Source of the DNA: Jiangella gansuensis DSM 44835
GTDB taxonomy: Bacteria > Actinomycetota > Actinomycetes > Jiangellales > Jiangellaceae
Direction: 5' to 3'
DNA length: 64,000 bases
NCBI RefSeq assembly: GCF_000515395.1
Contig: NZ_KI911782.1
Location: 1,093,090-1,157,089 of the forward strand
Position 1 is the stretch's first letter; each line of letters begins with the position of its first letter. This document shows positions 13,322 through 63,520 of this stretch, piece after piece. The notes under the pieces are model-generated. The model saw only the letters and a program-made list of their open reading frames with translations, made no database searches and had not been told where the DNA came from. The position numbers and the translations under genes were made by a program.

Positions 13322-13369
13322 CGAGTCCCGGCGGTGCATGCTAACCTGTGCATGCAGAGTGATGCATGC
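13319..13369 (+). promoter_or_regulatory. Promoter with three phased TGCATGC operator boxes upstream of vapB
   Basis: TGCATGC occurs at 13335-13341, 13349-13355 and 13363-13369, each exactly 14 bp apart. A -10-like TAACCT (13342-13347) lies between the first two, with a weak -35-like sequence around 13318-13324. Each box is itself nearly palindromic (GCATGC). This is the arrangement expected for cooperative autorepression by a ribbon-helix-helix antitoxin. Confidence 0.65.
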
Positions 13370-13394
13370 GCTGATTGAGGGCCGGGAGAAATCA

Positions 13395-13664
13395 ATGGCG
13401 ACGGTCCAGGTTCGTGATGTTCCTGACGAAGTGGCGGAAATCATCGCCGAAAAAGCCAGCGCCGAACACAAGTCCGTGTCGGCGTATCTCCGAGACCTCA
13501 TGGCGGCAGACGTGAAACTCGAACTCCAGAAGCGGGCCATCGCCCGGTGGGACGATAACTTGAAGCGGCTCCACGCAGAGCTCGGTATGCCGACGGCGTC
13601 TGATATCTCGGGCGCGGAGGTGATTCGCGAGCTCCGGGACGAGTACGAACGGGGCGACGGTTGA
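13395..13664 (+). CDS. vapB: VapB/FitA-type ribbon-helix-helix antitoxin
   Basis: An 89-residue protein. The N-terminus TVQVRDVPDEVAEIIAEKASAEHKSVSAYLRDLM is a canonical FitA/VapB ribbon-helix-helix DNA-binding domain, with the beta-strand VQVRDV and helices A and B. The C-terminal ~45 residues, rich in charged residues, would wrap around the toxin. The ATG at 13395 is chosen because the strand VQVRDV must be near the N-terminus and GGGAGAA precedes it. Its stop overlaps the toxin start (TTGA). It probably represses its own promoter through the three TGCATGC boxes. Confidence 0.9.
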   Translation: MATVQVRDVPDEVAEIIAEKASAEHKSVSAYLRDLMAADVKLELQKRAIARWDDNLKRLHAELGMPTASDISGAEVIRELRDEYERGDG

Positions 13665-14059
13665 TCGTCGTCGATGCCACGATCTGGGTCGACAGGCTGT
13701 GCGGAACGCTGCCGGAGGAACTCGCGGCGCTGATCCGGGCGGAGGGGTGCGCGGCCCCGGCCCATGTCGACTTCGAGGTCGGCTCTGGGCTGCTCCGACT
13801 GGAGCGACGCGGGATGCTGGCCGCTGGGCGCGCCGCCGTGCTGATCGAGGAGTTCAGCCGGCATCCGGTCGAACGCATCGGGCAGGCGCAGGACTTCGTG
13901 CGGGCAACGGGCCTCCTCGACAACAGCAGTTATGCCGATGCGCTGTACCTCGCGCTCGCCGAGCGGCTCGACTGCCCGCTGCTGACCAGCGACGCCGGGA
14001 TGAAGGCGGCTGCTCGAGTCGCCTCCATCCCCGTCGTCGACGCAACGATTGACGGCTGA
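13661..14059 (+). CDS. vapC: VapC PIN-domain ribonuclease toxin
   Basis: A 132-residue PIN protein. The acidic active-site set is visible: Asp5 in VVDATIWVD, Glu39 in HVDFEVGSGLL, Asp93 in [15 protein letters not shown] and a final Asp in LLTSDAGMK. These residues hold Mg2+ for endonucleolytic cleavage of RNA, usually tRNA or rRNA. The TTG start overlaps the vapB stop by four bases, so translational coupling keeps antitoxin in excess. The length and motif spacing are complete, so the toxin is expected to be functional. Confidence 0.9.
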   Translation: MIVVDATIWVDRLCGTLPEELAALIRAEGCAAPAHVDFEVGSGLLRLERRGMLAAGRAAVLIEEFSRHPVERIGQAQDFVRATGLLDNSSYADALYLALAERLDCPLLTSDAGMKAAARVASIPVVDATIDG

Positions 14060-14071
14060 CCGCTTGGACGG

Positions 14072-16276
14072 TTACGGCTGCGACCTCGCCGCAGGTACCT
14101 GCGGCTGGTCGCGGTCCGTGCCCAGGTGCTTCTCGAGCGCGGTGCCCTCGATGTCCACGTTCGGCAGCAGGCGGTCCAGCCAGCGCGGCAACCACCACGC
14201 GCGTTCGCCGACCAGCGCCAGTACCGCCGGCACGATGGTCATCCGGACCACGAAGGCGTCCACCGCGATGGCCACCGCCAGGGCGAAGCCGATCTGCCGC
14301 ACGTCCACGGCCTCGTTGAGGATGAAGCCGCCGAACACGCTGATCATGATCACGGCGGCGGCCGCGACCACCCGGGCGCCGTGCCGGAACCCGGTCTCGA
14401 CAGCCCGCCCGGCCGGCTCGCCGTGCACGTACGCCTCGCGCATCCGGGTGACCAGGAAGACCTCGTAGTCCATCGCCAGGCCGAACACCACGCCGATGAT
14501 GAAGATCGGCAGCATGCTGTTGATGAGCCCGGTCTCCTCGACGCCCAGCAGGCCGGTCAGCCAGCCCCACTGGAACACCGCGACCAGCGCACCGAACGAC
14601 ACCGCCATGGTCAACAGGAAGCCCAGGGTCGCCTTGAGCGGCACTACCAGCGACCGGAACGCCAGCATCAGCAGCAGGAACGACAACCCCACGACCACCA
14701 GCAGGTACGGCAACAGCGCGTCGCCGACCCGCTCGGAGAAGTCGATGAACAGCGCCGTCATGCCGGTCACCAGGACGGTCGCGCCGGTGGGCGCGTCGAG
14801 GTCGGTACGGATGGCCTCGACCAGCCGCTCGGTGTCCGCGCTGCCCGGGCCGGATGACGGTACGACGGTGACGACGGCGGTCCGGCCGTCCTCGTCGAGC
14901 TGCGGCGGCGCGACCAGCTCCACGCCGGACGTCTCGGTCAGGGCGGCGGCTACCTGCTCCGCGGCTGACTGCCCGTCGGCGCCGCTGTCTGCCATGTCCA
15001 CCACCACCAGCAGTGGGCCGTTGAAGCCAGGGCCGAAGCCGTCGGCGGTGAGGTCGTACGCCTTGCGCTGGGTGCTGTCCGGTGGGTAAGTGCCCTCGTC
15101 GGGAACGCCGAGGCGCAGGTCCGTCGCCGGCAGCGCCAGCACACCCAGCCCGACCACCGCGACGGCGAGAACGGCCACCGGGCGGCGGGTGACGAGGCCG
15201 ACCCAGCGCCGGCTCCAGGTGGGCCGGTCGTCGTCGGCCTCGGCATCACGCACCCGCAGGCCCGGCACCCGGACGGTGAGGAAGCGCCGCCCGGCGAACC
15301 CGAACAGGGCGGGCAGCAGCGTCAGTGCGATCACGACCGCGATCGCCACCGTCGCCGCGGCGGCCAGGCCCATCTCGGTGAGCACCGGGATACCCACGAC
15401 CGTCAGCCCGGACAGCGCGATGACCACGGTCAGCCCGGCGAACACCACGGCGGTTCCGGCGGTGCCGATCGCCCGTCCGGCCGCGTCGTCGCCGGAGCGC
15501 CCGATCAAGAGCTCGTGCCGGTACCGGGAGGCGATGAACAGCGCGTAGTCGATGCCGACCGCCAGGCCGAGCATGACAGCGAGGATCGGGGTGATCGAGC
15601 CGATGTCCACGAACCCGGTGGCCGCGGTGATCAGCGCGGCGCCGATGCCGACTCCCACGACGCCGGTGAGCAGCGGCATGCCGGCCGCGACCAGCGACCC
15701 GAACGTGATGATCAGGACGAGTGCGGCCACACCCAGGCCGATCAGCTCGCTGCCCAGTTCGGGCTCCTGCTCGACCGCGGTGCCGGCCAGCTCGACCGTC
15801 AGACCGGACGCGCGGCCGACGTCCGCGGCATCGTGCAGCCTCTCGCGGGTCTGCTCCTCCAACGAGAAGAAGTCGACGGCGTAGGTGACCTCGGCCAACG
15901 CGACCGAGCCGTCGGGTGAGACCAACTCGGCCTGGAACGGGTCGACCACCGAGGCGACCTGCGGGCCGGCGTCGACCGCCGCGATGGCGTCGTCGATGGC
16001 GGCCCGGTGCTCGGGGTCCGTGACACTCTCCGCGTCGGGGGCGGCGAACACCATGCGCGCGGCGGCACCGTCCGCCGACGACCCCGGGAACCGCTCCTCC
16101 AGCAGGTCGAACGCTTCCTGCGCCTCGGTGCCCGGAATGGAGAACGAGTCGGCCGTCGGCCCGGAGAGGGTGGCCGCCCCGACGCCCGCGAGCACCATGA
16201 TCGCCAGCCAGATCGTTCCCACCACCCCGCGGCGGCGGTACGAGAACCGGCCGATCCGGTACAGCAGGGTAGCCAC
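14072..16276 (-). CDS. MMPL/RND family membrane transporter
   Basis: A 734-residue protein with the MMPL duplication: two halves, each with one N-terminal helix, a large extracytoplasmic domain and five or six helices. The first helix is near residues 17-37. The proton-relay motifs are ILAVMLGLAVGIDYALFIASRYRHE in the first half and FIIGVVFGLAMDYEVFLVTRMREAYVHG in the second. The family exports lipids, siderophores or antibiotics using the proton gradient. It is a single gene converging on vapC, with 12 bp between. Upstream lies a set of nested inverted repeats without an adjacent regulator. The substrate is unknown. Confidence 0.9.
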   Translation of the reverse strand: MATLLYRIGRFSYRRRGVVGTIWLAIMVLAGVGAATLSGPTADSFSIPGTEAQEAFDLLEERFPGSSADGAAARMVFAAPDAESVTDPEHRAAIDDAIAAVDAGPQVASVVDPFQAELVSPDGSVALAEVTYAVDFFSLEEQTRERLHDAADVGRASGLTVELAGTAVEQEPELGSELIGLGVAALVLIITFGSLVAAGMPLLTGVVGVGIGAALITAATGFVDIGSITPILAVMLGLAVGIDYALFIASRYRHELLIGRSGDDAAGRAIGTAGTAVVFAGLTVVIALSGLTVVGIPVLTEMGLAAAATVAIAVVIALTLLPALFGFAGRRFLTVRVPGLRVRDAEADDDRPTWSRRWVGLVTRRPVAVLAVAVVGLGVLALPATDLRLGVPDEGTYPPDSTQRKAYDLTADGFGPGFNGPLLVVVDMADSGADGQSAAEQVAAALTETSGVELVAPPQLDEDGRTAVVTVVPSSGPGSADTERLVEAIRTDLDAPTGATVLVTGMTALFIDFSERVGDALLPYLLVVVGLSFLLLMLAFRSLVVPLKATLGFLLTMAVSFGALVAVFQWGWLTGLLGVEETGLINSMLPIFIIGVVFGLAMDYEVFLVTRMREAYVHGEPAGRAVETGFRHGARVVAAAAVIMISVFGGFILNEAVDVRQIGFALAVAIAVDAFVVRMTIVPAVLALVGERAWWLPRWLDRLLPNVDIEGTALEKHLGTDRDQPQVPAARSQP

Positions 16277-16370: not shown

Positions 16371-16441
16371 GGAATGATCACGTCCGGCATGGGTGCACCC
16401 GCTCCACCACCCATGCATGCCTGGTGAAGCGGGAGAACGCC
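16371..16441 (-). repeat. 72-bp hairpin repeat, copy A
   Basis: Read on the minus strand it runs from GGCGTTCTCCCGC to GTGATCATTCC. The core hairpin is CCCGCTTCACC / GGTGGAGCGGG around a GCATGC-containing loop. It lies between the divergent MMPL promoter region and the end of the M20 peptidase gene. It is about 71 bp because one T is missing near the end. Confidence 0.8.
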
Positions 16442-16463: not shown

Positions 16464-17582
16464 TCAGAGCGCGGCGATGAGCTCCGCCACCAGCTGTGCC
16501 CGCTCGGGCAGCGACTCGACGACCACCTGCTCGTGGGTCGCGTGCGCGCCGGCGCCGCGCGGCCCGAAGCCATCCAGCGTCGGGACGCCGAGTGACCCGG
16601 TGGTGTTGGTGTCGGCGCCGCCCGCGGCAGGGGCGCCGACGATTCGCTGGCCCACGCGCTCCGCCGCCGCCGTCACAGCGGTCAGCAGGGGCGACGGCGA
16701 CGCGGACCAGGTCGGCCGCCGCGACAGGACCTCGGCCGTCACCGTCGCGCCGGACCGGATCGGGCCCAGCGAGCCGAGCCCGTCCAGAACGATGCGCTCG
16801 GACTCCGCGTCGGCGAACCGCAGGCCAACGTCGGCCCAGGCCGACGCCGGGACGACGTTCGTCCGGCCGCCGCCGCCGATGGTCCCGACGTTGCACAGCA
16901 CCTCGCCGGGCGCGTGGCTGACGATCGTGCGGACCAGGATCAGCTGGTCGACCAGCTCGTCGACGGCTGAGACGCCGGCGTCGGGGTCCAGTGCGGCATG
17001 TGCCTCCACGCCGCGCACGGCGATCCGCAGGCGGGTGCTGCCGCGGCGGCCGGACTTCAGTGAACCATCGGGGTGCGGCGACTCGAACCCCAACGCGGCC
17101 ACCACGCCGTCGGCGCAGGTGCGCACCAGGGATGTCGCGGTGGGGGAGCCAACCTCCTCGTCGGCCACCACGAGCACCCGCACCGGCGGGTGCTCCCGGC
17201 CGTGCAGCAGCTCGAGTGCCGTCTCCATGACGACGAGCCCGCCCTTCATGTCGTAGGCGCCCGGACCGTGGGCGATGCCGTCGTCGACCCGCCACGGCAT
17301 GCCGTCGGCGAGCTGTCCGGCCGGCCAGACGGTGTCGTGGTGGCCGAGCAGCAGCACCGGCGCGGCCGCGACCTTGGCGCCGCTGCCGGGATGCTCCATG
17401 ACCAGGTGGTCGCCGCCCGGCGACGACACGCGGCGCACGGTGGCGCCCAACTCGCGGTGCCGGGCGAGCAGCAGCTCACCGAGTGCGTCGAGGCGCGCGG
17501 CGTCACCGGTAGGCGACTCGTGCCGGACGTAGGTCTCCAGCTGTTCGAGCATCGCGGCCGCCGATGGTGCTGTACGGTTCAT
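16464..17582 (-). CDS. M20 family metallopeptidase/amidohydrolase (probable N-acyl-L-amino acid hydrolase)
   Basis: A 372-residue enzyme with the co-catalytic di-zinc site of clan MH: GHHDTVW (His81, Asp83), the bridging Asp111 in GAYDMKGG, catalytic Glu142 and ligand Glu143 in ADEEVGS, and the final His in the HATHEQV segment. A lid/dimer domain is inserted in the middle. It resembles carboxypeptidase G2 and acyl-amino acid hydrolases. It is divergent from a GNAT-racemase operon; in the characterised N-succinylamino acid racemase pathway an M20 enzyme removes the succinyl group from the L-product. That role is inferred. A TATAGT box six bases before the ATG suggests a leaderless mRNA. Confidence 0.88.
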   Translation of the reverse strand: MNRTAPSAAAMLEQLETYVRHESPTGDAARLDALGELLLARHRELGATVRRVSSPGGDHLVMEHPGSGAKVAAAPVLLLGHHDTVWPAGQLADGMPWRVDDGIAHGPGAYDMKGGLVVMETALELLHGREHPPVRVLVVADEEVGSPTATSLVRTCADGVVAALGFESPHPDGSLKSGRRGSTRLRIAVRGVEAHAALDPDAGVSAVDELVDQLILVRTIVSHAPGEVLCNVGTIGGGGRTNVVPASAWADVGLRFADAESERIVLDGLGSLGPIRSGATVTAEVLSRRPTWSASPSPLLTAVTAAAERVGQRIVGAPAAGGADTNTTGSLGVPTLDGFGPRGAGAHATHEQVVVESLPERAQLVAELIAAL

Positions 17583-17588
17583 GGCGCA

Positions 17589-17604
17589 ACTATACGTTTC
17601 GTAT
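17589..17604. promoter_or_regulatory. Divergent control site: leaderless -10 (minus) and ATACG-N3-CGTAT palindrome
   Basis: On the minus strand TATAGT (17594 to 17589) is followed by six bases and the ATG at 17582, the spacing of a leaderless actinobacterial promoter. It overlaps a palindrome ATACG (17592-17596) / CGTAT (17600-17604). A repressor bound there would block the M20 promoter. The regulator is unknown. Confidence 0.5.
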
Positions 17605-17685
17605 CTTCGCATGATCCCGGCATCGGCGCCGGACGGTGCTGAGGTTGCGGTCCGTATGAAGGGCCGCTCCCGTGAAAGGGGAAGC

Positions 17686-18498
17686 ATGACGACGGCGCAG
17701 TTCCCGCTCGTCGAGCGGCTCTCCTCGGCCGCCGACCTGGCCGACGCCGCGCGGCTGTACCGCGAGGTGTTCGGCTACCAGGACGTCTCCCACTCGGTGA
17801 ACCCGCGGCTGCTGGCGTCGCTGGTGGCCAACGGCGGCTCCGTGGTGGGAGTCCGCGGCCCGGACGGCGCCCTGGTCGCGTTCGCGTACGGCTTCGTCGG
17901 CGTGGACGCCGGCGAGGTCTACCACTACTCGCAGGCCGCCGTGGTCGACGCCGGCCACCAGGGCCTGGGCCTCGGCCGGGCGCTCAAGCGCGGGCAGCGG
18001 GAGGTCGCCCTGGCCGGTGGGCAGACCCGGATGCGCTGGTCGTACGATCCGGCGCTGGTCCGCAACGGGCACTTCAACCTCGACGTGCTGGGCGCGGTCG
18101 GCCGCTGGTTCCGGCCCGACTTCTTCGGGCCCGGCACCGACCGGATGATCGTCGACTGGGACCTCGACGACGAGCGCCGGGCCCGCGAAGCGCCGGCACC
18201 CGCCGAGCCACCGGACGGACTCGCCGACCCGGCCGGCTGGCTGCGGCCCCGCACCTCCAGCCCAGAACGCCCGGAAGACCGGGAGCGCCCGGAAGACCGG
18301 GAGCGCCCGGAAGGCCGGGAGCTCCGGGACCACCCGGACACCTGGCTGCCGCTGCCGCTCGCGCCGGACCCGCGGCAGCAGGAGGCGCTCGGCCGCGCCG
18401 TCGCCGCACTGATCGGCACCGGTCACGTCGCGGTGTCGTGCCTCCGGCTGTCCGAGACGACGGCGGCCTATCGCTTCGTCCGGGCGGATCCGCGATGA
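17686..18498 (+). CDS. GNAT-family N-acyltransferase (candidate D-amino acid N-succinyltransferase)
   Basis: A 270-residue protein. The N-terminal ~170 residues are a GNAT domain: LADAARLYREVFGY, VAFAYGFVGVD, then the acetyl/acyl-CoA site QAAVVDAGHQGLGLGRALKRGQRE (motif A, Q/RxxGxG/A as GHQGLGLG) and the MRWSYDPALVRNGHFNLDVLGA stretch typical of the GNAT found beside MenC-like racemases. After it comes a low-complexity linker of three ERPEDR-type units, then a C-terminal ~60-residue domain. GAAAGGGG precedes the ATG. It overlaps the next gene by four bases. Specificity for D-amino acids and succinyl-CoA is inferred from the neighbouring racemase. Confidence 0.82.
   Translation: MTTAQFPLVERLSSAADLADAARLYREVFGYQDVSHSVNPRLLASLVANGGSVVGVRGPDGALVAFAYGFVGVDAGEVYHYSQAAVVDAGHQGLGLGRALKRGQREVALAGGQTRMRWSYDPALVRNGHFNLDVLGAVGRWFRPDFFGPGTDRMIVDWDLDDERRAREAPAPAEPPDGLADPAGWLRPRTSSPERPEDRERPEDRERPEGRELRDHPDTWLPLPLAPDPRQQEALGRAVAALIGTGHVAVSCLRLSETTAAYRFVRADPR
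18265..18318 (+). repeat. In-frame 18-bp tandem repeat (three units) inside the acyltransferase gene
   Basis: Three consecutive 18-bp units (18265-18282, 18283-18300, 18301-18318) differing at one or two positions encode an ERPEDR/ERPEGR linker between the GNAT domain and the C-terminal extension. It is likely prone to length variation by slippage. Confidence 0.8.
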
Positions 18499-19163
18499 CC
18501 GGCCCGGGTGCGCGCCGGCCACAGGCCGCCAACCGCGACCTCACCAGCCCGCACCAGCGCTTCGGCGCCCGCCTGCAGCGGCCGAAGTCCGCCGCGAACC
18601 TGCAGGCGCGCGTCATCGAGCAGGAGACCCGCACACTGGCCGAGGCGTTCGCCCGGGTCAGCGCGGACGGTTCCGTCGCGGCGGCCGCGGCCACGGTGGT
18701 GGCGGCGCGGCGCCGGTTCGTCGCCGGTACCGGCAAGGCGTTCGCGTACGCGTCGCTGCTGGCGGTGGACCTCTCCGCGGGCCTGTCGAACGTCACCCTG
18801 GTCGACGGGACGCTGGTGCGGCACGTGGACGTGCTGGCCGACGTCCGCGACTCCGACGTGCTGGTGGCCATCTCGTTGCGGCGCTATCGACGCGAGACGG
18901 TCGCGCTGGCCGAGCGGTTCGCGGCGGCGGGTGGCACCGTCGTCGCCGTCACGGATGCGGCCGGGTCGCCGCTGACGGCGGTGGCCGGCCAGTCGATCGT
19001 CGTGCCGACCGACAGCGCGTCGTTCGCGGACTCGCCGACGGCCGTCGCCGCGGTGATCCACTTGCTGGCCACGCTGACGACGGCGAGCGCGAAGGGCGCG
19101 CGGCGGCGGCTGGCGGAGCGCGACCGGCTGGCCGACGAACTCGACATCTACTGGGAGGGTTGA
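18495..19163 (+). CDS. SIS-domain protein (RpiR-like without its DNA-binding domain)
   Basis: A 222-residue protein. From about residue 75 it has a sugar isomerase (SIS) domain: RRRFVAGTGKAFAYASLLAVDLS, DSDVLVAISLRRYRRETVALAERFAAAGGTVVAVTDAAGSPL and a final helix. The preceding ~70 residues correspond to the linker helix seen in RpiR regulators, but the N-terminal RpiR helix-turn-helix is absent. SIS domains bind phosphosugars or related ligands. It overlaps the GNAT gene (ATGA) and is followed directly by the racemase. It could be a sensor needing a partner, or an isomerase-like enzyme; a transcription factor role is uncertain. Confidence 0.8.
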   Translation: MTGPGARRPQAANRDLTSPHQRFGARLQRPKSAANLQARVIEQETRTLAEAFARVSADGSVAAAAATVVAARRRFVAGTGKAFAYASLLAVDLSAGLSNVTLVDGTLVRHVDVLADVRDSDVLVAISLRRYRRETVALAERFAAAGGTVVAVTDAAGSPLTAVAGQSIVVPTDSASFADSPTAVAAVIHLLATLTTASAKGARRRLAERDRLADELDIYWEG

Positions 19164-19165
19164 CG

Positions 19166-20296
19166 TTGCTGGTCACCGAGGCCTCGTTGCACCTGGTCCG
19201 GCTGCCGCTGGTGCACGAGTTCCGCACCAGTTCGCACGCGAAGAAGCATCTCGAGCACATCCTCGTGCGGCTGACCGACGCGGACGGCGCCGTTGGCTGG
19301 GGTGAGATCGCCTCGCCCACGGACCCGTACTACTCGCCGGAGACGGTGGACACGTGCTGGCTGGTCGCCGAGCGGTACCTGTTGCCGGCGGTGGTCGGCC
19401 GGAGTTGGCAACACCCGTCGGAGGTAGCCGCCGCGTGGGCGAAGGTGCGTGGTCACCGCTTCGCCAAGGCCGGGGTCGACATCGCCGCGTGGGTGCTCTG
19501 GGCCACCGGGCGGGGCGTGCCGCTCGCGCAGGCCCTCGGCGGTACCCGCCGGTCGGTCGTCGCGGGGGTGTCGCTGGGCATCGAGCCGACCATCGACGCG
19601 CTGCTCGCCGAGGTCACCAAGCAGGTGGAGGCCGGGTATCCGCGGGTCAAGCTCAAGATCGCACCCGGCTGGGACGTCGAGCCGGTGCGGCAGGTCCGGC
19701 GGGCGTTCCCGGAGCTCATGCTGCACGTGGACGCGAACGGCGCCTACGGGGAGTCCGACGACGAGCTGCGGGCACTACGGGCGCTCGACGAGCACGGCCT
19801 GTCCATGATCGAGCAGCCGTTCGGCCCGCGGAACCTGCTGGCGCACGCGACCCTGCAGCGTGACATCGACACCCCGATCTGCCTGGATGAGTCGGTCGAC
19901 TCCGTCGACGACCTGCGCACCGCGCTCGTGCTGGGCGCGCTGAAGGTGCTGAACATCAAGGTGTCCCGGATGGGCGGGCTGGGCGCGGCCGTGCTCGCCC
20001 ACGACGTCGCCGGCGAGCACGGCATCCCGGTGTGGTGCGGCGGCATGCACGAGTTCGGGGTCGGCCGGGCCGCCAACGTGGCGTTGTCCAGCCTGCCCGG
20101 GTTCACGCTGCCGTCGGACGTGTCGGCGTCGGAGAAGTACTACGAGCGCGATGTGATCCTCCCGCCGGTCACCGCGGCCGCGGGCGTCGTCGAGGTCCCG
20201 GCGGTGCCGGGGCTCGGCCACGTCGTGGACACCGAGCTGATCGAAGCGGCCACGCTGCGGACCACGACCGTGCGCGCCGGCCGTCTCGCCGAATAG
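19166..20296 (+). CDS. N-succinylamino acid racemase / o-succinylbenzoate synthase-like enolase-superfamily enzyme
   Basis: A 376-residue enzyme of the muconate-lactonizing subgroup. The catalytic set is complete: KLK (Lys162, Lys164) in RVKLKIAPGWD, metal ligands Asp189 (VDANGAY), Glu216 (MIEQPF) and Asp241 (CLDESV), and Lys265 in NIKVSRMGG on the opposite face. This two-lysine arrangement supports 1,1-proton transfer (racemisation). TTG 19166 is preferred to TTG 19160 because GGGAGGG (19153-19159) is six bases before it. There are no menaquinone genes nearby, so racemisation of N-acylamino acids, using GNAT-made substrates, fits better than OSBS activity. Confidence 0.85.
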   Translation: MLVTEASLHLVRLPLVHEFRTSSHAKKHLEHILVRLTDADGAVGWGEIASPTDPYYSPETVDTCWLVAERYLLPAVVGRSWQHPSEVAAAWAKVRGHRFAKAGVDIAAWVLWATGRGVPLAQALGGTRRSVVAGVSLGIEPTIDALLAEVTKQVEAGYPRVKLKIAPGWDVEPVRQVRRAFPELMLHVDANGAYGESDDELRALRALDEHGLSMIEQPFGPRNLLAHATLQRDIDTPICLDESVDSVDDLRTALVLGALKVLNIKVSRMGGLGAAVLAHDVAGEHGIPVWCGGMHEFGVGRAANVALSSLPGFTLPSDVSASEKYYERDVILPPVTAAAGVVEVPAVPGLGHVVDTELIEAATLRTTTVRAGRLAE

Positions 20297-20308
20297 AACG
20301 GAGCCGTC

Positions 20309-21718
20309 ATGACAACGCCCGCCCTGCGGGACACGAACCGGGCGCCGGTCCCGGTGAAGAACGTCGTCGCCGCCGGCCTGCTGGTCGCCTCGCTGATCGC
20401 GGCGCTCGTGCTCAACCTCACCACCGACGAGCTGGGACTGTGGGGCCTGCTCCCCATCGTCGTGTACGCCGTCCTCGTCCTGCTCGAGGTCAACGTCGTG
20501 CTGGCGACCGGCGTGGCGATGGTGGTGGGGTTCGTGCTCACCGGTGCCGGGCCGCTCGAGATCAGCACGATGATGTCGGAGTCGCTGGGCTCGTTCATCG
20601 CGGTGATCGGGCTGATCATCATGCTCGGCGCCGGGCTGGGGCGTATCGCGTCTGACACCGGCGCGGCGCAGACGCTGGTGCGCGCGCTGCTGCAAGGTGT
20701 CGGGCTGAACAGCGCGGTGCGCATCCAGGTGGGCATCATGCTCGCCAGCACCGTGCTGGTCGGATCGCTGGGCACGCTGGCCGGGGCCAACGCGATCCTC
20801 GCGCCGATCGTGATCCCGGTGGCCGCCGCGGTCAGCCGGTCCCGCCCGTCCGTGGCGGCGATGCTGCACGCGGGCGGCGCCGCGGGGTTGATCATCGGGC
20901 CGTTCACGCCGCCGGTCGTGACCATTACCGGCGCGGCCGGTCTCAGCTACGTCGAGTACCTGCTCACCGCCGGGCTGCCGATGGCCGTCGTCACCTGGCT
21001 GACCGGCTTCTTCATGGCCCGCTACATCCAGCGCCGCACCGAGGCCGACCAGTACACGGAGCAGGAACTGGCCGGCCTGGACACCGGCTCGGAGCCCACC
21101 GGCCGCGAGAAGCGGGCCGCGTTCGCGTTCATCGGCACGCTGGTCGCGATGGCCGTGCTGGGCGTGATCCTGGAAGCCGGGTTCGCCTACGCGATCCTGG
21201 TCATGCTGGTCACCGCGATCGTGACGGCGTTCGCCGGCGGGATGCGCCCGGCCGACGCGCTGACCTCCTTCTACGCCGGGGCGTCGCAGCTGCTCTGGCT
21301 GTTCTTCCTCTTCTGGTTGTTCAACCCGCTGCTGGTGATGCTGGAGCAGTCCGGCGCGTACGGCGCGCTGCTGGACGCCCTGCAGCCGGCGCTGGAGGAC
21401 GCCGGCCCGTGGCCGTTCCTGATGCTCACCCTCCTGGTCGGCTGGCTGGGCGTGGCCGGTGCGGCCGTCGCCCAGGTCGCGCTGATCGACGAGCTGCTGT
21501 GGCCGCTGGCCGCGAGCGTCGGGGTACCGGCGACGGCGTGGGGTGCGGCGCTGCTCGGTGGTAGCCAGATCGACTGGTTCGGGCCGTTCCCCAACGCGGA
21601 CATGATCGGCCAGATGGGGCTGGCCCGCTCGTCCAACCTGCGGATGATGCTGGTCAACGGCTGGACGATCATGGCCGCCAACCTGGTGCTGTTCGCCGTG
21701 CTGTTCGCGGTGCTCTGA
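20309..21718 (+). CDS. Multi-pass ion-coupled permease (GntP/NhaC-like)
   Basis: A 469-residue membrane protein with about 11-12 hydrophobic segments. These include IGLIIMLGAGLGRIASDTGAAQTLVRALL, LGTLAGANAILAPIVIPVAAAV, GLIIGPFTPPVVTITGAAGLSYVEYL and an interruption rich in charged residues near residue 250. The re-entrant GANAILAPIVIP and GPFTPP motifs and internal repetition are features of the ion transporter superfamily (GntP, NhaC, DASS relatives). Co-location with racemase and deacylases suggests uptake of amino acids or N-acylamino acids, driven by H+ or Na+. The exact family and substrate are uncertain. Confidence 0.78.
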   Translation: MTTPALRDTNRAPVPVKNVVAAGLLVASLIAALVLNLTTDELGLWGLLPIVVYAVLVLLEVNVVLATGVAMVVGFVLTGAGPLEISTMMSESLGSFIAVIGLIIMLGAGLGRIASDTGAAQTLVRALLQGVGLNSAVRIQVGIMLASTVLVGSLGTLAGANAILAPIVIPVAAAVSRSRPSVAAMLHAGGAAGLIIGPFTPPVVTITGAAGLSYVEYLLTAGLPMAVVTWLTGFFMARYIQRRTEADQYTEQELAGLDTGSEPTGREKRAAFAFIGTLVAMAVLGVILEAGFAYAILVMLVTAIVTAFAGGMRPADALTSFYAGASQLLWLFFLFWLFNPLLVMLEQSGAYGALLDALQPALEDAGPWPFLMLTLLVGWLGVAGAAVAQVALIDELLWPLAASVGVPATAWGAALLGGSQIDWFGPFPNADMIGQMGLARSSNLRMMLVNGWTIMAANLVLFAVLFAVL

Positions 21719-21719
21719 G

Positions 21720-22535
21720 ATGTGGCCGGCGCCGCGGGCCGACCGGCTCCGTGCCGGGCTGGCCTCGCTCGCCGAGGCCGGCCCGGGGCGGTGGGCTTTC
21801 GCCGTGTGGGAGCAGGGGCGGCCGGTGGTCTCCCTGAGCGGTGCCGAGCCGGTGCCGGCGGCCAGCACCATCAAGGTGCCGCTGCTGGTGCTGGCGTTGC
21901 AGGACGTGGCCACCGGACGGCGCGATCTCGACGACGACGTGCCGGTGCCGGCGGAGCGTGCCGGCGGGGCCGGAGTGCTGCGGCTGCTGCCGTCGGTGCG
22001 GCGGCTGCGGTTCGCCGAGCTGCTGACCCTGATGATCGCCGTCAGCGACAACGCCGCCAGCAACCTGGTGATCGAACTGCTCGGCCTCGACGACGCCGAC
22101 CGGCGCCTCGCCGCGCTCGGCCTGACCGGCACCAGGCTGCGCCGCCGGCTGATGGACACGGAGGCGGCCCGGGCCGGCCTGGAGAACGTGACGACGGCCG
22201 ACGACCAGTCCCGGCTGCTCGACCGCCTGGCCGGCCCGGACCTGCTGCCGGCACCGTTGCGCGCCTTCGCCCTCGATGCGCTGGCCGAGCAGCAGGTCAA
22301 CGACCGGATGCCGACGCAGCTCGGTGACGACGTGCGGTGCCTGCACAAGACCGGTGAGCTCCCGGGCGTGCGGCACGACGTCGGCCTGCTCGAGTTCGAC
22401 GGACGGACGGTGGCGCTCGCCGCGCTGGGCACCGAGCTGACCGATCCGGCGACGCTGCGGCTGGCCGGCAGTGGGCCGGCAGGTACCGTGATCGGCGCTG
22501 CGGCACGGATGGTGGTGGAGGTGGCCCGGACATGA
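21720..22535 (+). CDS. Class A beta-lactamase-like serine hydrolase, apparently cytoplasmic
   Basis: A 271-residue protein with all three active-site elements of class A penicillin-recognising enzymes: STIK (Ser49-x-x-Lys), SDN (~residue 108) and KTG in HKTGELPG (~residue 211). An E-x-x-R-x-x-LEN-like omega-loop region (DTEAARAGLENVTT) is also present. There is no signal peptide; the protein starts directly with the enzyme fold, so it should act in the cytoplasm. It is translationally linked to the permease upstream (TGAGATG) and the D-aminoacylase downstream (ATGA). In this setting a D-amino-acid amidase or D-peptide hydrolase is more plausible than antibiotic resistance. Confidence 0.85.
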   Translation: MWPAPRADRLRAGLASLAEAGPGRWAFAVWEQGRPVVSLSGAEPVPAASTIKVPLLVLALQDVATGRRDLDDDVPVPAERAGGAGVLRLLPSVRRLRFAELLTLMIAVSDNAASNLVIELLGLDDADRRLAALGLTGTRLRRRLMDTEAARAGLENVTTADDQSRLLDRLAGPDLLPAPLRAFALDALAEQQVNDRMPTQLGDDVRCLHKTGELPGVRHDVGLLEFDGRTVALAALGTELTDPATLRLAGSGPAGTVIGAAARMVVEVART

Positions 22536-24103
22536 GTGAACTGGACGTCGTCCTGCGGGGCGGGACCGTGGTGGACGGTTCCGGCGGTGACCCGTTCGTC
22601 GCCGACGTCGGCATCGGCGCGGGACTGATCCGGGCCGTGTCCGCGGACCGGCTGAGCGCCCGGCGGGTCATCGACGCGTCGGGGCAGGTGGTGACGCCGG
22701 GCTTCGTCGACCTGCATTCGCACGCCGACTTCACCCTGCCCGGTTGGCCGGCGGCCACCACACAGATCTGCCAGGGGGTGACGACGCTTCTGGTCGGCAA
22801 CTGCGGATGGTCACCGTTCCCCGTCGGCGACCTGGCCGAGCTGCGGTCGGCCACCGCGTTCTTCGACCCCGATCTCGACTGGGCATGGAGCGACGTCGAC
22901 GGGTTCGCCACCGCGGCCGACGCCGTCCGGCCAGCGGTGAACGTCGCCCTGCAGGTCGGTCACTCCTCGCTGCGGCTGGCGGCGATGGGTGGCGCGGACC
23001 GGGCAGCCGATGCCGGCGACCTCGACCGGATGGCCGGGTGGCTGGGCGGCACGGCCGCACGCCTGCTGCACGGCTTCTCCACCGGCCTCATCTACGCGCC
23101 CGGCACCTACTCCGACGAGGCCGAGGTGCGGCACCTGGTGAAGGCCGCCGCGGCGTCCGGATTGCTCTACTCCACCCACATCCGCGACGAGTCGGCGGGG
23201 TTGCTGGACGCGATCGGTGAGGCCGTCGACGCCGCGGCCGCCGCCGGCGCCCGCCTGGAGATCTCGCACCTGAAGTCGATAGGGCCCGTCGACCACGGCG
23301 GCGTCCCAGCGGCGCTGGAGCTGATCGACGAAGCCGTGGCACGCGGCGTCGACGTGGCCGCCGACGTCTACCCGTACACCGCGTCGAGCACCACGCTGAC
23401 GTCGCGGCTGCCGGGCTGGGCCATGGACGGCGGCCCCGGCGAGCTGCTGCGCCGGCTGGCCGACCCGGCCGGGCGGGAGCGGATCGCGGCGGAACTGCGC
23501 GCGCAGACGGGAATCCTGCTCGACCCGGCCGGGGTCGTCATCGCCGAGCTGGGGCCAGGCCGGTACGCCGACGCGGCCGGAGCCAGCATCGCGGACATCG
23601 CCCGCCGCGACGGCGTCGACGCCGCCGAGGCGGTGCTGCGGGTCCTGGAGGCGCACGATGCCGCGGTCGCGGTGGTCAACCACGGCATGCGCGAGGACGA
23701 CGTCATCGCGGCGCTGCGCCACCCGCGGGTGTCGGTCGCCAGCGACGGCTGGGTACTGAAGCCGTCCGGCGCCGGCCGGCCGCACCCGCGCAGCTTCGGG
23801 ACCTTCCCGCGGGTGCTGGCGCGCTACGTCCGCGACCTCGGCGTGCTCTCCCTGCCGGAAGCGGTGCGCAAGATGACGGCGTGGCCGGCGGCCCGGCTGG
23901 GCCTGACCGACCGGGGCACGATCGCGCCCGGCAAGGTCGCCGACGTCGTCGTGCTGGACGCCGAGCGCGTCGCGGACACGTCGACGTTCGACCAGCCATG
24001 GCGGCTGCCCACCGGGATCAGCACCGTCCTCGTCGGCGGGCAGCCGGCGCTGGACGGCGGTGAGCCGACCGACGTCCGGGCCGGGCGCGTCCTGCGCAGG
24101 TAA
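22532..24103 (+). CDS. N-acyl-D-amino-acid deacylase family amidohydrolase
   Basis: A 523-residue metal-dependent amidohydrolase, the usual D-aminoacylase length. Landmarks: N-terminal beta-sandwich LDVVLRGGTVVDGSGGDPFVADVGI; metal site DLHSHADF (HxH); the GNCGWSPFP motif, where the Cys is a conserved ligand in this family; GLIYAPGTYSDEAEV; the THIRDES and EISHLKS histidines; and the metal-Asp in VASDGWVL. It hydrolyses N-acyl-D-amino acids to D-amino acid and acid. It closes an operon with GNAT, racemase, permease and serine hydrolase. This gives two routes for acylated D-amino acids: deacylation here or racemisation plus L-specific deacylation. Confidence 0.88.
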   Translation: MSELDVVLRGGTVVDGSGGDPFVADVGIGAGLIRAVSADRLSARRVIDASGQVVTPGFVDLHSHADFTLPGWPAATTQICQGVTTLLVGNCGWSPFPVGDLAELRSATAFFDPDLDWAWSDVDGFATAADAVRPAVNVALQVGHSSLRLAAMGGADRAADAGDLDRMAGWLGGTAARLLHGFSTGLIYAPGTYSDEAEVRHLVKAAAASGLLYSTHIRDESAGLLDAIGEAVDAAAAAGARLEISHLKSIGPVDHGGVPAALELIDEAVARGVDVAADVYPYTASSTTLTSRLPGWAMDGGPGELLRRLADPAGRERIAAELRAQTGILLDPAGVVIAELGPGRYADAAGASIADIARRDGVDAAEAVLRVLEAHDAAVAVVNHGMREDDVIAALRHPRVSVASDGWVLKPSGAGRPHPRSFGTFPRVLARYVRDLGVLSLPEAVRKMTAWPAARLGLTDRGTIAPGKVADVVVLDAERVADTSTFDQPWRLPTGISTVLVGGQPALDGGEPTDVRAGRVLRR

Positions 24104-24273: not shown

Positions 24274-26511
24274 ATGACCACGACCCTGCCCCTGGACCGG
24301 CCACCCGTTCCCGCCCCGCCACCGCCACCTGGACCGGGCCGCGGCCTGGTCGTCGGCGCGGCCCGATGGAGCGCCCACCACAAGTGGACCGCGCTGCTGC
24401 TCTGGCTCGCGTTCGTCGCCGCCGCGATCGTCGGCGGCGGCGCCGTCGGGACCCAGGAGGTGGCCGACGGCGACTACGGCATCGGTGCCTCCGCGGGCGC
24501 CGACAAGGCGATCGCCGGCGCCGACTTCGACGAACCGCACACCGAGTCGGTCCTGGTCCGGGCGGCCGACGGCGGCATCGTCGACCCGTCGTCGGATCAA
24601 CTCGCCGGACTGCGTGCCGACCTGGCAGCGGCGTCCGGCGTCGCTGAGGTCTCCAGCCCGCAGCCCTCCGCCGACGGCGCCGCGGTGCTCTACGAGGTCA
24701 CCCTCGACGTTCCCGAGGGCACCGACGCGGAGATGGACGACGCCGCCTCCGCGGCCGCCGCCGAGGTCGGCCGCGTCGTCGACGAAGCCGGCGCCGCCGC
24801 GCCGGAGCTGATGGTCGGCCAGGTCGGCGACGCGTCCCTGGACGCCGCGCTGGACCAGCTCTACGAGGACGACCTGCGCCGGGCCGAGTACCTGTCGCTC
24901 CCGGTCAGCCTGCTCATCATGGTCGTGGTGTTCGGCGCGCTGATCGCCGCGGCGGTACCGGTGCTGCTGGCGTTGTCGTCGGTGGTCGCCGCGATGGGGC
25001 TGTCGGCGTTCGCGTCGCACCTCATCCCGTCCAGTGACATGCTCGCCTCGGTGATCCTCCTGGTCGGCATGGCCGTCGGCGTCGACTACTCGCTGTTCTA
25101 CGTGCGCCGCGAACGTGAGGAGCGGGCGAAGGGCCGCGGCACCCTGGACGCCGTCACCGTCGCGGCGGCCACGTCCGGCCGGGCCGTCGTGGTCTCCGGT
25201 ATCGCTGTCATCATCGCGATGGCCGGCATGTTCTTCGCCGGCGAGGCGACGTTCGAGTCGCTGGCCGTGGGCACCATCCTGGTCGTGGCGGTCGCCGTCG
25301 TCGGCTCGGTGACGGCGCTGCCCGCGTTGCTGTCGATCTTCGGCCGGTGGATCGACCGGCCGCGCATCCCGCTGCTGTGGCGGCTGCGTCGCGGCGACGG
25401 AGCCGACTCACGGCTGTGGAGCGCGATCCTGCGGCCGGTGCTGCGGCACCCGCGCACCGCGCTGTTCGTCGGCGTCGCCGCGCTGCTGGCACTCGCCGCA
25501 CCCGCGCTGGGTATGAAGCTGTCGCAACCGGGCATCTCGGACCTGGCCCAGGACGTGCCCGAGGTGCAGACCTACGACGCCGTCACCGCCGCGTTCCCCG
25601 CCGAAGGGGCGTCGCACACCGTCGCCGTCTGGTCCGCCGACGGTGCGGCACTGGACACCGCCGCCGTCGACGACGCCGTGGCCGCGCTCGGCGACGACGT
25701 GACGGGTGACCCGCGGTTCGCGGTCGACGACGGACTGACGGCCGAGTACTCCGCGGACCGGTCGGTCGCCGAGATCGCGGTGCACGTGCCGTACGAGTCC
25801 GACGACGAGCGAGCCGAACAGTCGCTGGAGGTGTTGCGGAACGACCTGGTGCCGGCGGCCTTCGACGGGGTGGACGGGGCCGAGACCGGCGTCACCGGGC
25901 AGACCGCCGGCAACGTCGACTTCCGCGGCCTGCTGGCCGACCGGATGCCGATCGTGATCGGGTTCGTACTGCTGATGACGATCATGGTGCTGGTGATGGC
26001 GTTCCGGTCGCTGACCGTCGCGCTGACGGCGGCCGCACTGAACCTGCTGTCGGTGGCGGCGGCCTACGGCCTGCTGACCCTGGTGTTCCAGAACACGTGG
26101 GCGGAGTCGCTGCTCGGCTTCACCTCGACCGGGGCGCTCATCATCTGGCTGCCGCTGTTCCTGTTCGTCATCCTGTTCGGGCTCTCGATGGACTACCACG
26201 TCTTCGTGGTCAGCCGCATCCGCGAAGGCGCCCGGGCGGGCCTGACGACGCCGGAGGCAGTGCGCACCGGGATCGTCCGCTCCGCCGGGGTGGTGACCAG
26301 CGCGGCCGTGGTGATGGTGGCGGTCTTCTCGATCTTCGCCTCGCTCGGCGCGATCGAGTTCAAGCAGCTGGGCATCGGACTGGCCGCGGCGATCCTCATC
26401 GACGCGACCATCGTCCGGGCCGTGCTGCTGCCATCGTTGATGGTGCTGCTGGGAGAGCGGAACTGGTGGCTGCCCCGGCCGCTGAAGCGGCTGCCGGCGC
26501 TGGAGCACTGA
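24274..26511 (+). CDS. MMPL/RND family membrane transporter
   Basis: A 745-residue MMPL protein with Pro-rich cytoplasmic N-terminus (PPVPAPPPPPGPGR), first helix near residue 44, and the duplicated membrane modules. Key motifs are VILLVGMAVGVDYSLFYVRREREERAKG and FVILFGLSMDYHVFVVSRIREGARAG. It differs clearly from the MMPL at 14072, so it is not a recent duplicate. The 170-bp upstream region holds G/C-rich inverted repeats (TGGGG-TGAT-CCCC and GGGGGTTACCCCC, 24122-24156) but no recognised promoter or regulator. It is a single gene ending at a strong palindromic terminator. The substrate is unknown. Confidence 0.9.
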   Translation: MTTTLPLDRPPVPAPPPPPGPGRGLVVGAARWSAHHKWTALLLWLAFVAAAIVGGGAVGTQEVADGDYGIGASAGADKAIAGADFDEPHTESVLVRAADGGIVDPSSDQLAGLRADLAAASGVAEVSSPQPSADGAAVLYEVTLDVPEGTDAEMDDAASAAAAEVGRVVDEAGAAAPELMVGQVGDASLDAALDQLYEDDLRRAEYLSLPVSLLIMVVVFGALIAAAVPVLLALSSVVAAMGLSAFASHLIPSSDMLASVILLVGMAVGVDYSLFYVRREREERAKGRGTLDAVTVAAATSGRAVVVSGIAVIIAMAGMFFAGEATFESLAVGTILVVAVAVVGSVTALPALLSIFGRWIDRPRIPLLWRLRRGDGADSRLWSAILRPVLRHPRTALFVGVAALLALAAPALGMKLSQPGISDLAQDVPEVQTYDAVTAAFPAEGASHTVAVWSADGAALDTAAVDDAVAALGDDVTGDPRFAVDDGLTAEYSADRSVAEIAVHVPYESDDERAEQSLEVLRNDLVPAAFDGVDGAETGVTGQTAGNVDFRGLLADRMPIVIGFVLLMTIMVLVMAFRSLTVALTAAALNLLSVAAAYGLLTLVFQNTWAESLLGFTSTGALIIWLPLFLFVILFGLSMDYHVFVVSRIREGARAGLTTPEAVRTGIVRSAGVVTSAAVVMVAVFSIFASLGAIEFKQLGIGLAAAILIDATIVRAVLLPSLMVLLGERNWWLPRPLKRLPALEH

Positions 26512-35838: not shown

Positions 35839-35910
35839 GGCGAACTCCCGCTTCGGCAGGCAAGCATCCATGGTGCGGCGGGAACACCCATGCCGAACGT
35901 GATCATTTCC
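35839..35910 (+). repeat. 72-bp hairpin repeat, copy B (left of ISL3 remnant)
   Basis: From GGCGAACTCCCGC to CGTGATCATTTCC. It shares the GGCAAGCATCCATGG loop and ACACCCATGCCG segment with the other copies. The stem is weakened to CCCGC/GCGGG. It abuts the transposase remnant and is mirrored by copy C on the other side. Confidence 0.85.
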
Positions 35911-36200: not shown

Positions 36201-36272
36201 GGAAATGATCACGTCCCCCATGGGTGTTCCCGCTCCACCAGGAATGCTTGCCACCTGTGGCGGGAGAACGCC
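36201..36272 (-). repeat. 72-bp hairpin repeat, copy C (right of ISL3 remnant)
   Basis: Inverted relative to copy B; on the minus strand it runs from GGCGTTCTCCCGCC to ACGTGATCATTTCC. Together with copy B it brackets 290 bp holding the transposase remnant. Similarity between B and C continues about six bases inward (CGGCTCT / CGACTCT). Confidence 0.85.
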
Positions 36273-38496: not shown

Positions 38497-38567
38497 GCGA
38501 GTTCCCGCCTCACCAGGCAAGCATTCATGGTGGAGCGGGCACACCCATGCTCCACGTGATCATTCGG
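38496..38567 (+). repeat. 72-bp hairpin repeat, copy D
   Basis: From GGCGAGTTCCCGCC to GTGATCATTCG. Hairpin CCCGCCTCACC / GGTGGAGCGGG around AGGCAAGCATTCAT. It begins at the stop codon of the membrane protein gene, so it could act as its terminator. Confidence 0.85.
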
Positions 38568-50655: not shown

Positions 50656-50727
50656 GGGGTTCTCCCGCCTCACGGGGCAAGCATTCCTGGTGAAGCGGGA
50701 GGACCCATGCCGGACGTGGCCATTTCT
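50656..50727 (+). repeat. 72-bp hairpin repeat, copy E
   Basis: From GGGGTTCTCCCGCC to GTGGCCATTTCT. Stem CCCGCCTCAC... / ...GTGAAGCGGG around GGGGCAAGCATTCCTG. It sits in the 283-bp spacer after the glycosylase and may terminate it. It is the most diverged at its 3' end. Confidence 0.82.
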
Positions 50728-62933: not shown

Positions 62934-63272
62934 TCACAGGTCGATGACACGTCGTAGTCCGGCGTCGACCGCGTTGAGTAGATTCTCCGGGAGATTGGTC
63001 CCAGTCGGTTCGATGACCGCCCGGTCGACCGTCATCGGCTGGGAGACGTTCACGACCGAGTCCTTCGGCAGGCCAGAGGCGAGTGCTGGCACGAAGACGT
63101 TACCGGGATGCCTCGCCAAGGCGGTGTTCGAGGTCACCGGAAGCACGATGACAGTCGAGATGCGGGACTTGTTGTAATGGTCGGACTGGACCACGATCGC
63201 GGGGCGTCGTTTGGCCGGCGCGCTGCCCCGTGGTTCGCCGAAGTCGACCCAGCACACCTCACCGCGTCGCAT
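62934..63272 (-). CDS. mazF: MazF-type endoribonuclease toxin
   Basis: A 112-residue PemK/MazF fold protein: MRRGEVCWVDFGEPRGSAPAKRRPAIVVQSDHYN at the N-terminus, then STVIVLPVTSN, GNVFVPA, and the SVVNVSQPMTVDRAVI stretch with the catalytic Arg/Thr region. It cleaves mRNA at short sequence motifs. ATG 63272 overlaps the antitoxin stop by one base (TGATG); GTG 63275 is an alternative. It is downstream of and co-transcribed with the antitoxin. Confidence 0.92.
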   Translation of the reverse strand: MRRGEVCWVDFGEPRGSAPAKRRPAIVVQSDHYNKSRISTVIVLPVTSNTALARHPGNVFVPALASGLPKDSVVNVSQPMTVDRAVIEPTGTNLPENLLNAVDAGLRRVIDL

Positions 63273-63520
63273 CACCACTCGTCGGACGCCTCGACCAGGT
63301 GGGTGTTCGCGGCTCTGCGCCACTCGGTGCTCTCGTCGCCGGGCTGGCCGACGTCATCGATGGCGTGGTCGATCTGCGCGGTCAGCTCCGCGCCGTCGAG
63401 CTCGTCGGCGTAGTGCTCGGCGGCGCGCCGGTAGAACTCCGACCGCGTCATCCCGTGCTTCTGGGCGATGCGGTCGAAGCGCATGGCCGCGTGGTCCGGG
63501 AGGCTGATCGCTGTCTTCAT
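63272..63520 (-). CDS. mazE: MazE-type ribbon-helix-helix antitoxin
   Basis: An 82-residue protein. The N-terminus MKTAISLPDHAAMRFDRIAQKHGMTRSEFYRRAAEHYADEL is a ribbon-helix-helix domain (strand KTAISLP, then two helices) of the MazE type paired with actinobacterial MazF. The acidic C-terminus neutralises the toxin. Before the ATG the minus strand reads TACCGT then six bases, compatible with a leaderless promoter. Confidence 0.88.
   Translation of the reverse strand: MKTAISLPDHAAMRFDRIAQKHGMTRSEFYRRAAEHYADELDGAELTAQIDHAIDDVGQPGDESTEWRRAANTHLVEASDEW

Follow-up and report, generated by a model that had tools for sequence, protein, structure and literature searches.

A candidate regulated cluster for D-amino acid salvage in Jiangella gansuensis, with a SIS-domain protein that lacks the DNA-binding domain of the RpiR family

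N-succinylamino acid racemases (NSARs) are widely used biocatalysts, and the accessible literature says little of what they do outside Geobacillus. In Geobacillus kaustophilus, the NSAR pathway converts D-amino acids irreversibly to L-amino acids (Sakai et al. 2006, Biochemistry 45:4455, as described in PMC8762209), and a CoA-dependent GNAT enzyme yields the N-acetyl and N-succinyl derivatives of D-Phe, D-Tyr and D-Trp (Sakai 2006, cited in PMC8762209). We analysed a stretch of 64,000 nucleotides (the window) from one contig of the 5.59 Mb genome of Jiangella gansuensis DSM 44835 (G000 C1:1093090-1157089), a member of the Jiangellaceae with other Jiangella species as its nearest relatives. Seven genes between positions 16464 and 24103 (Table 1) include those for a GNAT acyltransferase, an NSAR and an M20 deacylase, together with a SIS-domain protein and a putative operator. 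The whole is best explained, in our moderately confident view, as a regulated D-amino acid salvage cluster.

The M20-GNAT-NSAR cluster of Lysinibacillus stood in for that of Geobacillus in our sequence comparisons. The same three-step logic is found in the window, with 27% identity between the GNAT proteins and 40% between the NSARs, but the deacylase, the racemase type and the gene content differ. BLAST gives no significant match between the window M20 and that of Lysinibacillus, a member of the Bacillota (E 0.14); the latter matches TIGR01891 and the former the families of carboxypeptidase G2 (CPG2) type, and orthology of the two deacylases was not found. The window racemase falls in a clade apart from the Amycolatopsis-like, Deinococcus and Bacillota types (support 100/100). 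Moreover, the window adds the SIS gene, the operator, a permease, a D-aminoacylase and a class A-like serine hydrolase.

An initial annotation, made from the letters of the DNA, had listed six of the seven genes, missing both the SIS gene, which lies between the GNAT and racemase genes, and the operator. Its family assignments were borne out by Pfam, NCBIfam and PDB sequence searches and by motifs. The M20 protein carries all the metal-binding and catalytic motifs of CPG2 (HHDTV, YDMKGG, DEEVG, GFES and GAHATH). The enolase-superfamily protein matches PF13378, PF02746 and TIGR01928 (300.6 bits, cutoff 200.65), and its closest PDB sequences are the N-acylamino acid racemases of Deinococcus, Thermus and Amycolatopsis. 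Both catalytic lysines named earlier are present, K164/K166 as KxK and K267, and these residues, the metal ligands D191, E218 and D243 and the second-shell arginine of NSARs, R270 in KVSR, are invariant in 86 of 86 relatives. From its position after the distal lysine, we take R270 to be the equivalent of Amycolatopsis R266, which Truong in 2021 reportedly linked to NSAR specificity. The window GNAT alone has no Pfam match at E<=0.001; its family membership rests on the match of 45 of its 48 relatives to PF00583 and on an AlphaFold model (pLDDT 91.1) with the GNAT fold and 682 Foldseek matches at E<=0.001. It extends C-terminally past the GNAT core, and its probable start is at 17686 instead of 17581, where it had been placed.

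The remaining three proteins could be assigned to families as well. The permease belongs to the CitMHS/GntP superfamily. The class A-like hydrolase has the motifs SxxK (49-52), SDN (109-111) and KTG (210-212) and scores 73 bits against the class A beta-lactamase equivalog model, far under the cutoff of 200; it shows no obvious signal peptide by eye and is probably cytosolic, in agreement with the first reading. The D-aminoacylase-like amidohydrolase keeps the ligand pattern of its family with the family spacing (H62 and H64 in HxH, C91, H216 and H246, D405). It is homologous over most of its length to its best PDB matches, the D-aminoacylase and N-acyl-D-glutamate deacylase structures 1m7j and 3gip, differing from 1m7j in a longer stretch before the last metal ligand.

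The evidence that carries the enzymatic reading comes from gene neighbourhoods. Among 80 close loci of a GTDB collection, in which gene presence was counted by hand, a GNAT gene lies near the racemase in 78, an M20 gene in 69 and a SIS gene in 69, and the order M20(-)/GNAT(+)/SIS(+)/racemase(+) recurs across at least 23 genera or unnamed lineages. The survey across actinomycetes that the initial annotation had suggested was made on an even sample of 246 Actinomycetota genomes, taking as neighbours genes within 3 kb on one strand, and found GNAT and NSAR to be near-obligate partners: 47 of 51 GNAT places adjoin an NSAR and 47 of 52 racemase places adjoin a GNAT. Both genes occur in 46 genomes, GNAT alone in 2, the racemase alone in 4 and neither in 194 (Fisher p 1e-42, relatedness ignored). 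The plasmid-borne GNAT relatives that were inspected (Lysinibacillus, Deinococcus, Priestia, Sulfitobacter and Streptomyces) all adjoin a gene labelled menC. The breadth of this near-obligate pairing, within Actinomycetota and outside it, speaks for D-amino acid conversion as the shared natural job of NSARs, and also for many genes labelled menC being misnamed. The match to the NSAR pathway proposed earlier is supported by the GNAT-NSAR adjacency and the frequency of M20, as well as by a separate MenC and a second NSAR cluster in the same genome, both described below. The core is thus well supported, by inference, as an NSAR route for D-to-L conversion.

From the computed gene content, motifs, folds and synteny we infer the catalytic steps, their stereospecificity, the acyl group and the substrate of transport, following the chemistry of the published NSAR pathway. 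The permease would import N-acyl-D-amino acids or small D-containing compounds. In the cytosol, the free D-amino acid would be released from these by the D-aminoacylase, possibly aided by the class A-like hydrolase, and then N-acylated by the GNAT from succinyl-CoA or acetyl-CoA. The racemase would interconvert the N-acyl-D and N-acyl-L forms, and the M20 enzyme would hydrolyse the N-acyl-L form, which would draw the net flow from D to L. Peptidoglycan had been put forward as the source of D-amino acids; no evidence for it was found, and nothing in the cluster points to peptidoglycan in particular. The HTH-less SIS protein would control the divergent M20/GNAT promoter. The plus-strand genes, from GNAT to D-aminoacylase, overlap or abut and are compatible with a single transcript, as had been claimed, but M20 is divergent across a 103-bp gap and stands outside any single operon.

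That gap holds the palindrome GATACG-N3-CGTATC. AACGTAT words occur in 38 of 64 M20/GNAT gaps; in shuffled sequences no word reached more than 12. When a site was counted at a match of at least 10 of 12 positions, sites were found in the upstream regions of 62 of the 68 loci with SIS and 2 of the 11 without. Both SIS-less exceptions are from Leifsonia, but in both genomes the SIS gene turned up at the other end of the larger cluster to which the locus belongs; with this correction the figures are 64 of 70 with SIS and none of 9 without (p 2e-8, relatedness ignored). One of the nine SIS-less loci (L056) has a SIS relative elsewhere in the genome, with no operator near that relative, and both states, with SIS and operator and without either, occur in Nesterenkonia. 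On the racemase tree, SIS presence requires 5 changes against 31 by shuffling, Leifsonia being scored there as without SIS. Sites are 226-fold denser upstream of GNAT (83 in 23.45 kb) than elsewhere (20 in 1.28 Mb). Strong sites are also present close to dipeptide-transporter genes in three loci (L072, L073 and L074), which would put transport into the same regulon. The window site is the only ATACGNNNCGTAT across the 5.59 Mb genome, but this uniqueness is weak taken alone, given that about 0.7 copies are expected from base composition by our own estimate and that a reversed control pattern occurs too; the case for the putative operator is carried by the positional and phylogenetic evidence. 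A sigma-70 promoter scan of the divergent region gave no match.

Proteins of the RpiR family usually bind DNA through the HTH_6 domain, and the ligand of MurR, one of its members, is a sugar phosphate. The window SIS protein has the SIS effector domain of such regulators (3sho; MurR 7en5-7en7), of the C-terminal RpiR type, and its AlphaFold model (pLDDT 87) finds the RpiR SIS domain 3sho as best fold match (TMt 0.84). It differs from them in that HTH_6 is absent; this domain was matched in only 2 of 25 rows, by their length those of Priestia and Sulfitobacter. A hidden HTH in the SIS gene was rejected, since the SIS start coincides with, or overlaps, the GNAT stop in most relatives. Furthermore, the loop SLRRYRRET, with R130 and Y131 invariant, replaces the SYSGSKKE of MurR, so that the protein may bind another ligand. 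This SIS family (E<=1e-25) is present in 2 of the 246 genomes, the two that hold the racemases closest to that of the window.

Since the presence of the operator tracks the SIS gene, the SIS protein is likely the regulator of the cluster and would bind the operator without an HTH, a binding inferred from co-occurrence. A more specific proposal is tentative, at somewhat less than even weight: that this HTH-less protein recognises the operator by means of a conserved N-terminal segment rich in arginine (NRxLxSPxxRFGARLQRxSSA) and responds to an intermediate of the salvage route, not to a sugar phosphate, a suggestion prompted by the replacement of the sugar-phosphate loop of MurR by the invariant RY motif. 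With the gene and its site, a proposed regulator that lacks its family's DNA-binding domain can be put to the test, and they offer a route to the inducer and hence to the natural substrate. It is possible, though doubtful, that an unlinked HTH regulator binds the operator, the SIS protein being an enzyme or a ligand-binding partner of a cluster enzyme. The absence of HTH_6 would fit this, as would the SIS fold, which occurs in isomerases and here matches RpiR regulators and phosphosugar isomerases alike. However, an unlinked regulator would leave unaccounted for the tracking of the SIS gene by the operator, including that within Nesterenkonia, and the position of the SIS gene in Leifsonia, the apparent exception; in addition, full-length RpiR genes adjoin NSAR genes in Priestia and Sulfitobacter.

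Three SIS-family proteins carry an N-terminal extension of 60-85 residues that resembles a worn HTH_6: L160:2753-3775 (-), which is the outgroup, L045:9130-9384 and L053:9126-9383. The extension was rejected as a relic of HTH_6, as its similarity in a profile comparison fell short of significance and a Pfam search of P0008 gave no HTH. The operator site is absent from the outgroup genome G203, which holds a SIS protein with this extension. In a Nesterenkonia genome whose NSAR locus is without SIS, a SIS-family relative lies elsewhere (L181, G269:C1:275048-275692), with one TGA reported within the match.

The same genome holds a second NSAR cluster at C1:3377204-3391409 (L159, L117), with a D-aminoacylase, a dipeptide ABC transporter, S9 and CubicO hydrolases, M20, GNAT, NSAR and a PucR-type regulator; the transporter, the S9 and CubicO hydrolases and the regulator were named by similarity and reading, without a Pfam scan. 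Its NSAR is very close to that of Amycolatopsis (547 bits), and a relative's version of this cluster (L167) adds a class A-like hydrolase. M20, GNAT, NSAR, D-aminoacylase, serine hydrolase and transporter functions are common to both clusters, but their proteins are distant (48% identity for NSAR, about 40% for D-aminoacylase and 38% for M20), the transporter and the serine hydrolases are of other families, and PucR takes the place of SIS. Such sharing at 38-48% identity indicates that the link between the D-aminoacylase, serine hydrolase and transporter genes and the M20, GNAT and NSAR genes is no local accident. In Microbacteriaceae, the corresponding slots are filled by a dipeptide ABC transporter, a C39-like peptidase, an M19 dipeptidase and a class C-like hydrolase.

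The permease, class A-like hydrolase and D-aminoacylase genes form a separable module. They lie beside NSAR genes both in the window and, at 65-82% identity, in Haloactinopolyspora; in other Jiangellaceae, permease relatives of 81-84% identity have class A-like and D-aminoacylase genes as neighbours, and the module stands alone, outside any NSAR cluster, in four loci from other genera of that family (L162-L165). A fifth locus, from another genus of Jiangellaceae (L161), has stand-alone class A-like and D-aminoacylase genes, with no permease match seen. This distribution makes the full seven-gene combination rare and its parts and logic recurrent. The initial annotation had known of no description of the full combination, and no description of it was found in the open literature; its uniqueness was overstated, however, as equivalent functional sets exist in the same genome (the second cluster), in Haloactinopolyspora and on a Streptomyces plasmid.

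Other functions may be considered for the cluster as a whole. The scavenging of N-acyl-DL-amino acids, with the D-aminoacylase cutting N-acyl-D and the M20 enzyme N-acyl-L forms, the racemase letting either serve and GNAT being secondary, is unlikely. The two deacylases would indeed cover both enantiomers, and a D-aminoacylase gene adjoins NSAR in about 31 of the 80 loci, but it is optional, whereas no gene accompanies NSAR more constantly than GNAT. Detoxification or defence, in which GNAT would acylate toxic D-amino acids or an antibiotic with the help of the beta-lactamase-like protein and of the MmpL pumps on either side, and conversion to the L form would not be the purpose, is quite improbable. 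It would explain why GNAT, the class A-like hydrolase and two MmpL-type genes are grouped together; yet in most genomes GNAT is tied to NSAR and not to MmpL, the hydrolase, probably a cytosolic protein, is seldom present (2 of 80 loci), and the transporters of several relatives are dipeptide importers. Least probable by far is that the racemase is an o-succinylbenzoate synthase (OSBS) for menaquinone, as automatic annotation has it (menC, TIGR01928), for although it exceeds the cutoff of that OSBS model and NSARs are often promiscuous OSBSs according to the literature, its neighbours are amino acid enzymes, R270 is invariant, and a dedicated actinobacterial MenC at C1:296023-296976 (437 bits, cutoff 288) means that it is not the only OSBS candidate of the genome and rules out the menaquinone role.

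Several points weigh against the reading as a regulated salvage cluster. The D-aminoacylase could reverse the GNAT step, and the chemistry of every step is predicted. In distant actinobacterial loci, M20 was detected near GNAT-NSAR in just 3 of 20 and not in the other 17, so the cluster need not include the deacylase. Other Jiangella lack the permease, hydrolase and D-aminoacylase part at the NSAR site, where MmpL directly follows the racemase. Lastly, RpiR proteins normally use HTH_6, and any DNA-binding element in the SIS protein is hypothetical. Taken together, the cluster is real and conserved, a known pathway in a new form with an unusual regulatory arrangement.

Table 1. Position, strand and supporting evidence of the features in the cluster (coordinates of the window)
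Feature	Position	Strand	Evidence
M20 metallohydrolase (carboxypeptidase G2-like), proposed N-acyl-L-amino acid deacylase	16464..17582	-	PF01546 E 2e-26; CPG2 1cg2 E 5e-31; start set from homologues
Divergent intergenic region between M20 and GNAT	17583..17685		103-bp gap
Operator-like palindrome TATACGTTTCGTATC, consensus GATACGNNNCGTATC	17591..17605		Conserved upstream of SIS-bearing loci
GNAT-fold acyltransferase, proposed acyl-CoA:D-amino acid N-acyltransferase	17686..18498	+	PF00583 in relatives; AlphaFold fold; NSAR adjacency
SIS-domain protein, RpiR/MurR-derived without HTH_6, proposed regulator	18495..19163	+	PF01380 E 1e-13; fold; tracks operator
Enolase-superfamily N-acyl/N-succinylamino acid racemase, TTG start	19160..20296	+	2ggg/1r0m E 1e-90; TIGR01928
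Ion-transporter-superfamily permease (CitMHS/GntP/Na_H_antiporter-like)	20309..21718	+	Pfam
Class A beta-lactamase-like serine hydrolase, probably cytosolic, possible D-stereospecific amidase/peptidase	21720..22535	+	PF13354 E 3.5e-59; 4ewf E 5e-22
D-aminoacylase / N-acyl-D-amino acid deacylase-type amidohydrolase	22532..24103	+	PF07969; 3gip, 1m7j E 9e-78 to 2e-69

The cluster is flanked on both sides by genes for MmpL-type transporters (14072-16276, minus strand, and 24274-26511, plus strand), of which Pfam confirms the one at 24274-26511. A dispersed imperfect-palindrome repeat of about 60-75 bp occurs in the window at 16371-16434, immediately downstream of the M20 gene, and at 35857-35910, 36201-36252, 38503-38565 and 50659-50718; it has about 40 places in the genome, the other copies being 82-90% identical to the query copy. 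Two toxin-antitoxin pairs also lie in the window, a likely FitA-like ribbon-helix-helix (RHH) antitoxin, slightly below the Pfam cutoff, with a PIN-domain toxin (13338-13664 and 13661-14059), and a PemK/MazF-like toxin with an RHH antitoxin (62934-63323 and 63272-63520, minus strand).

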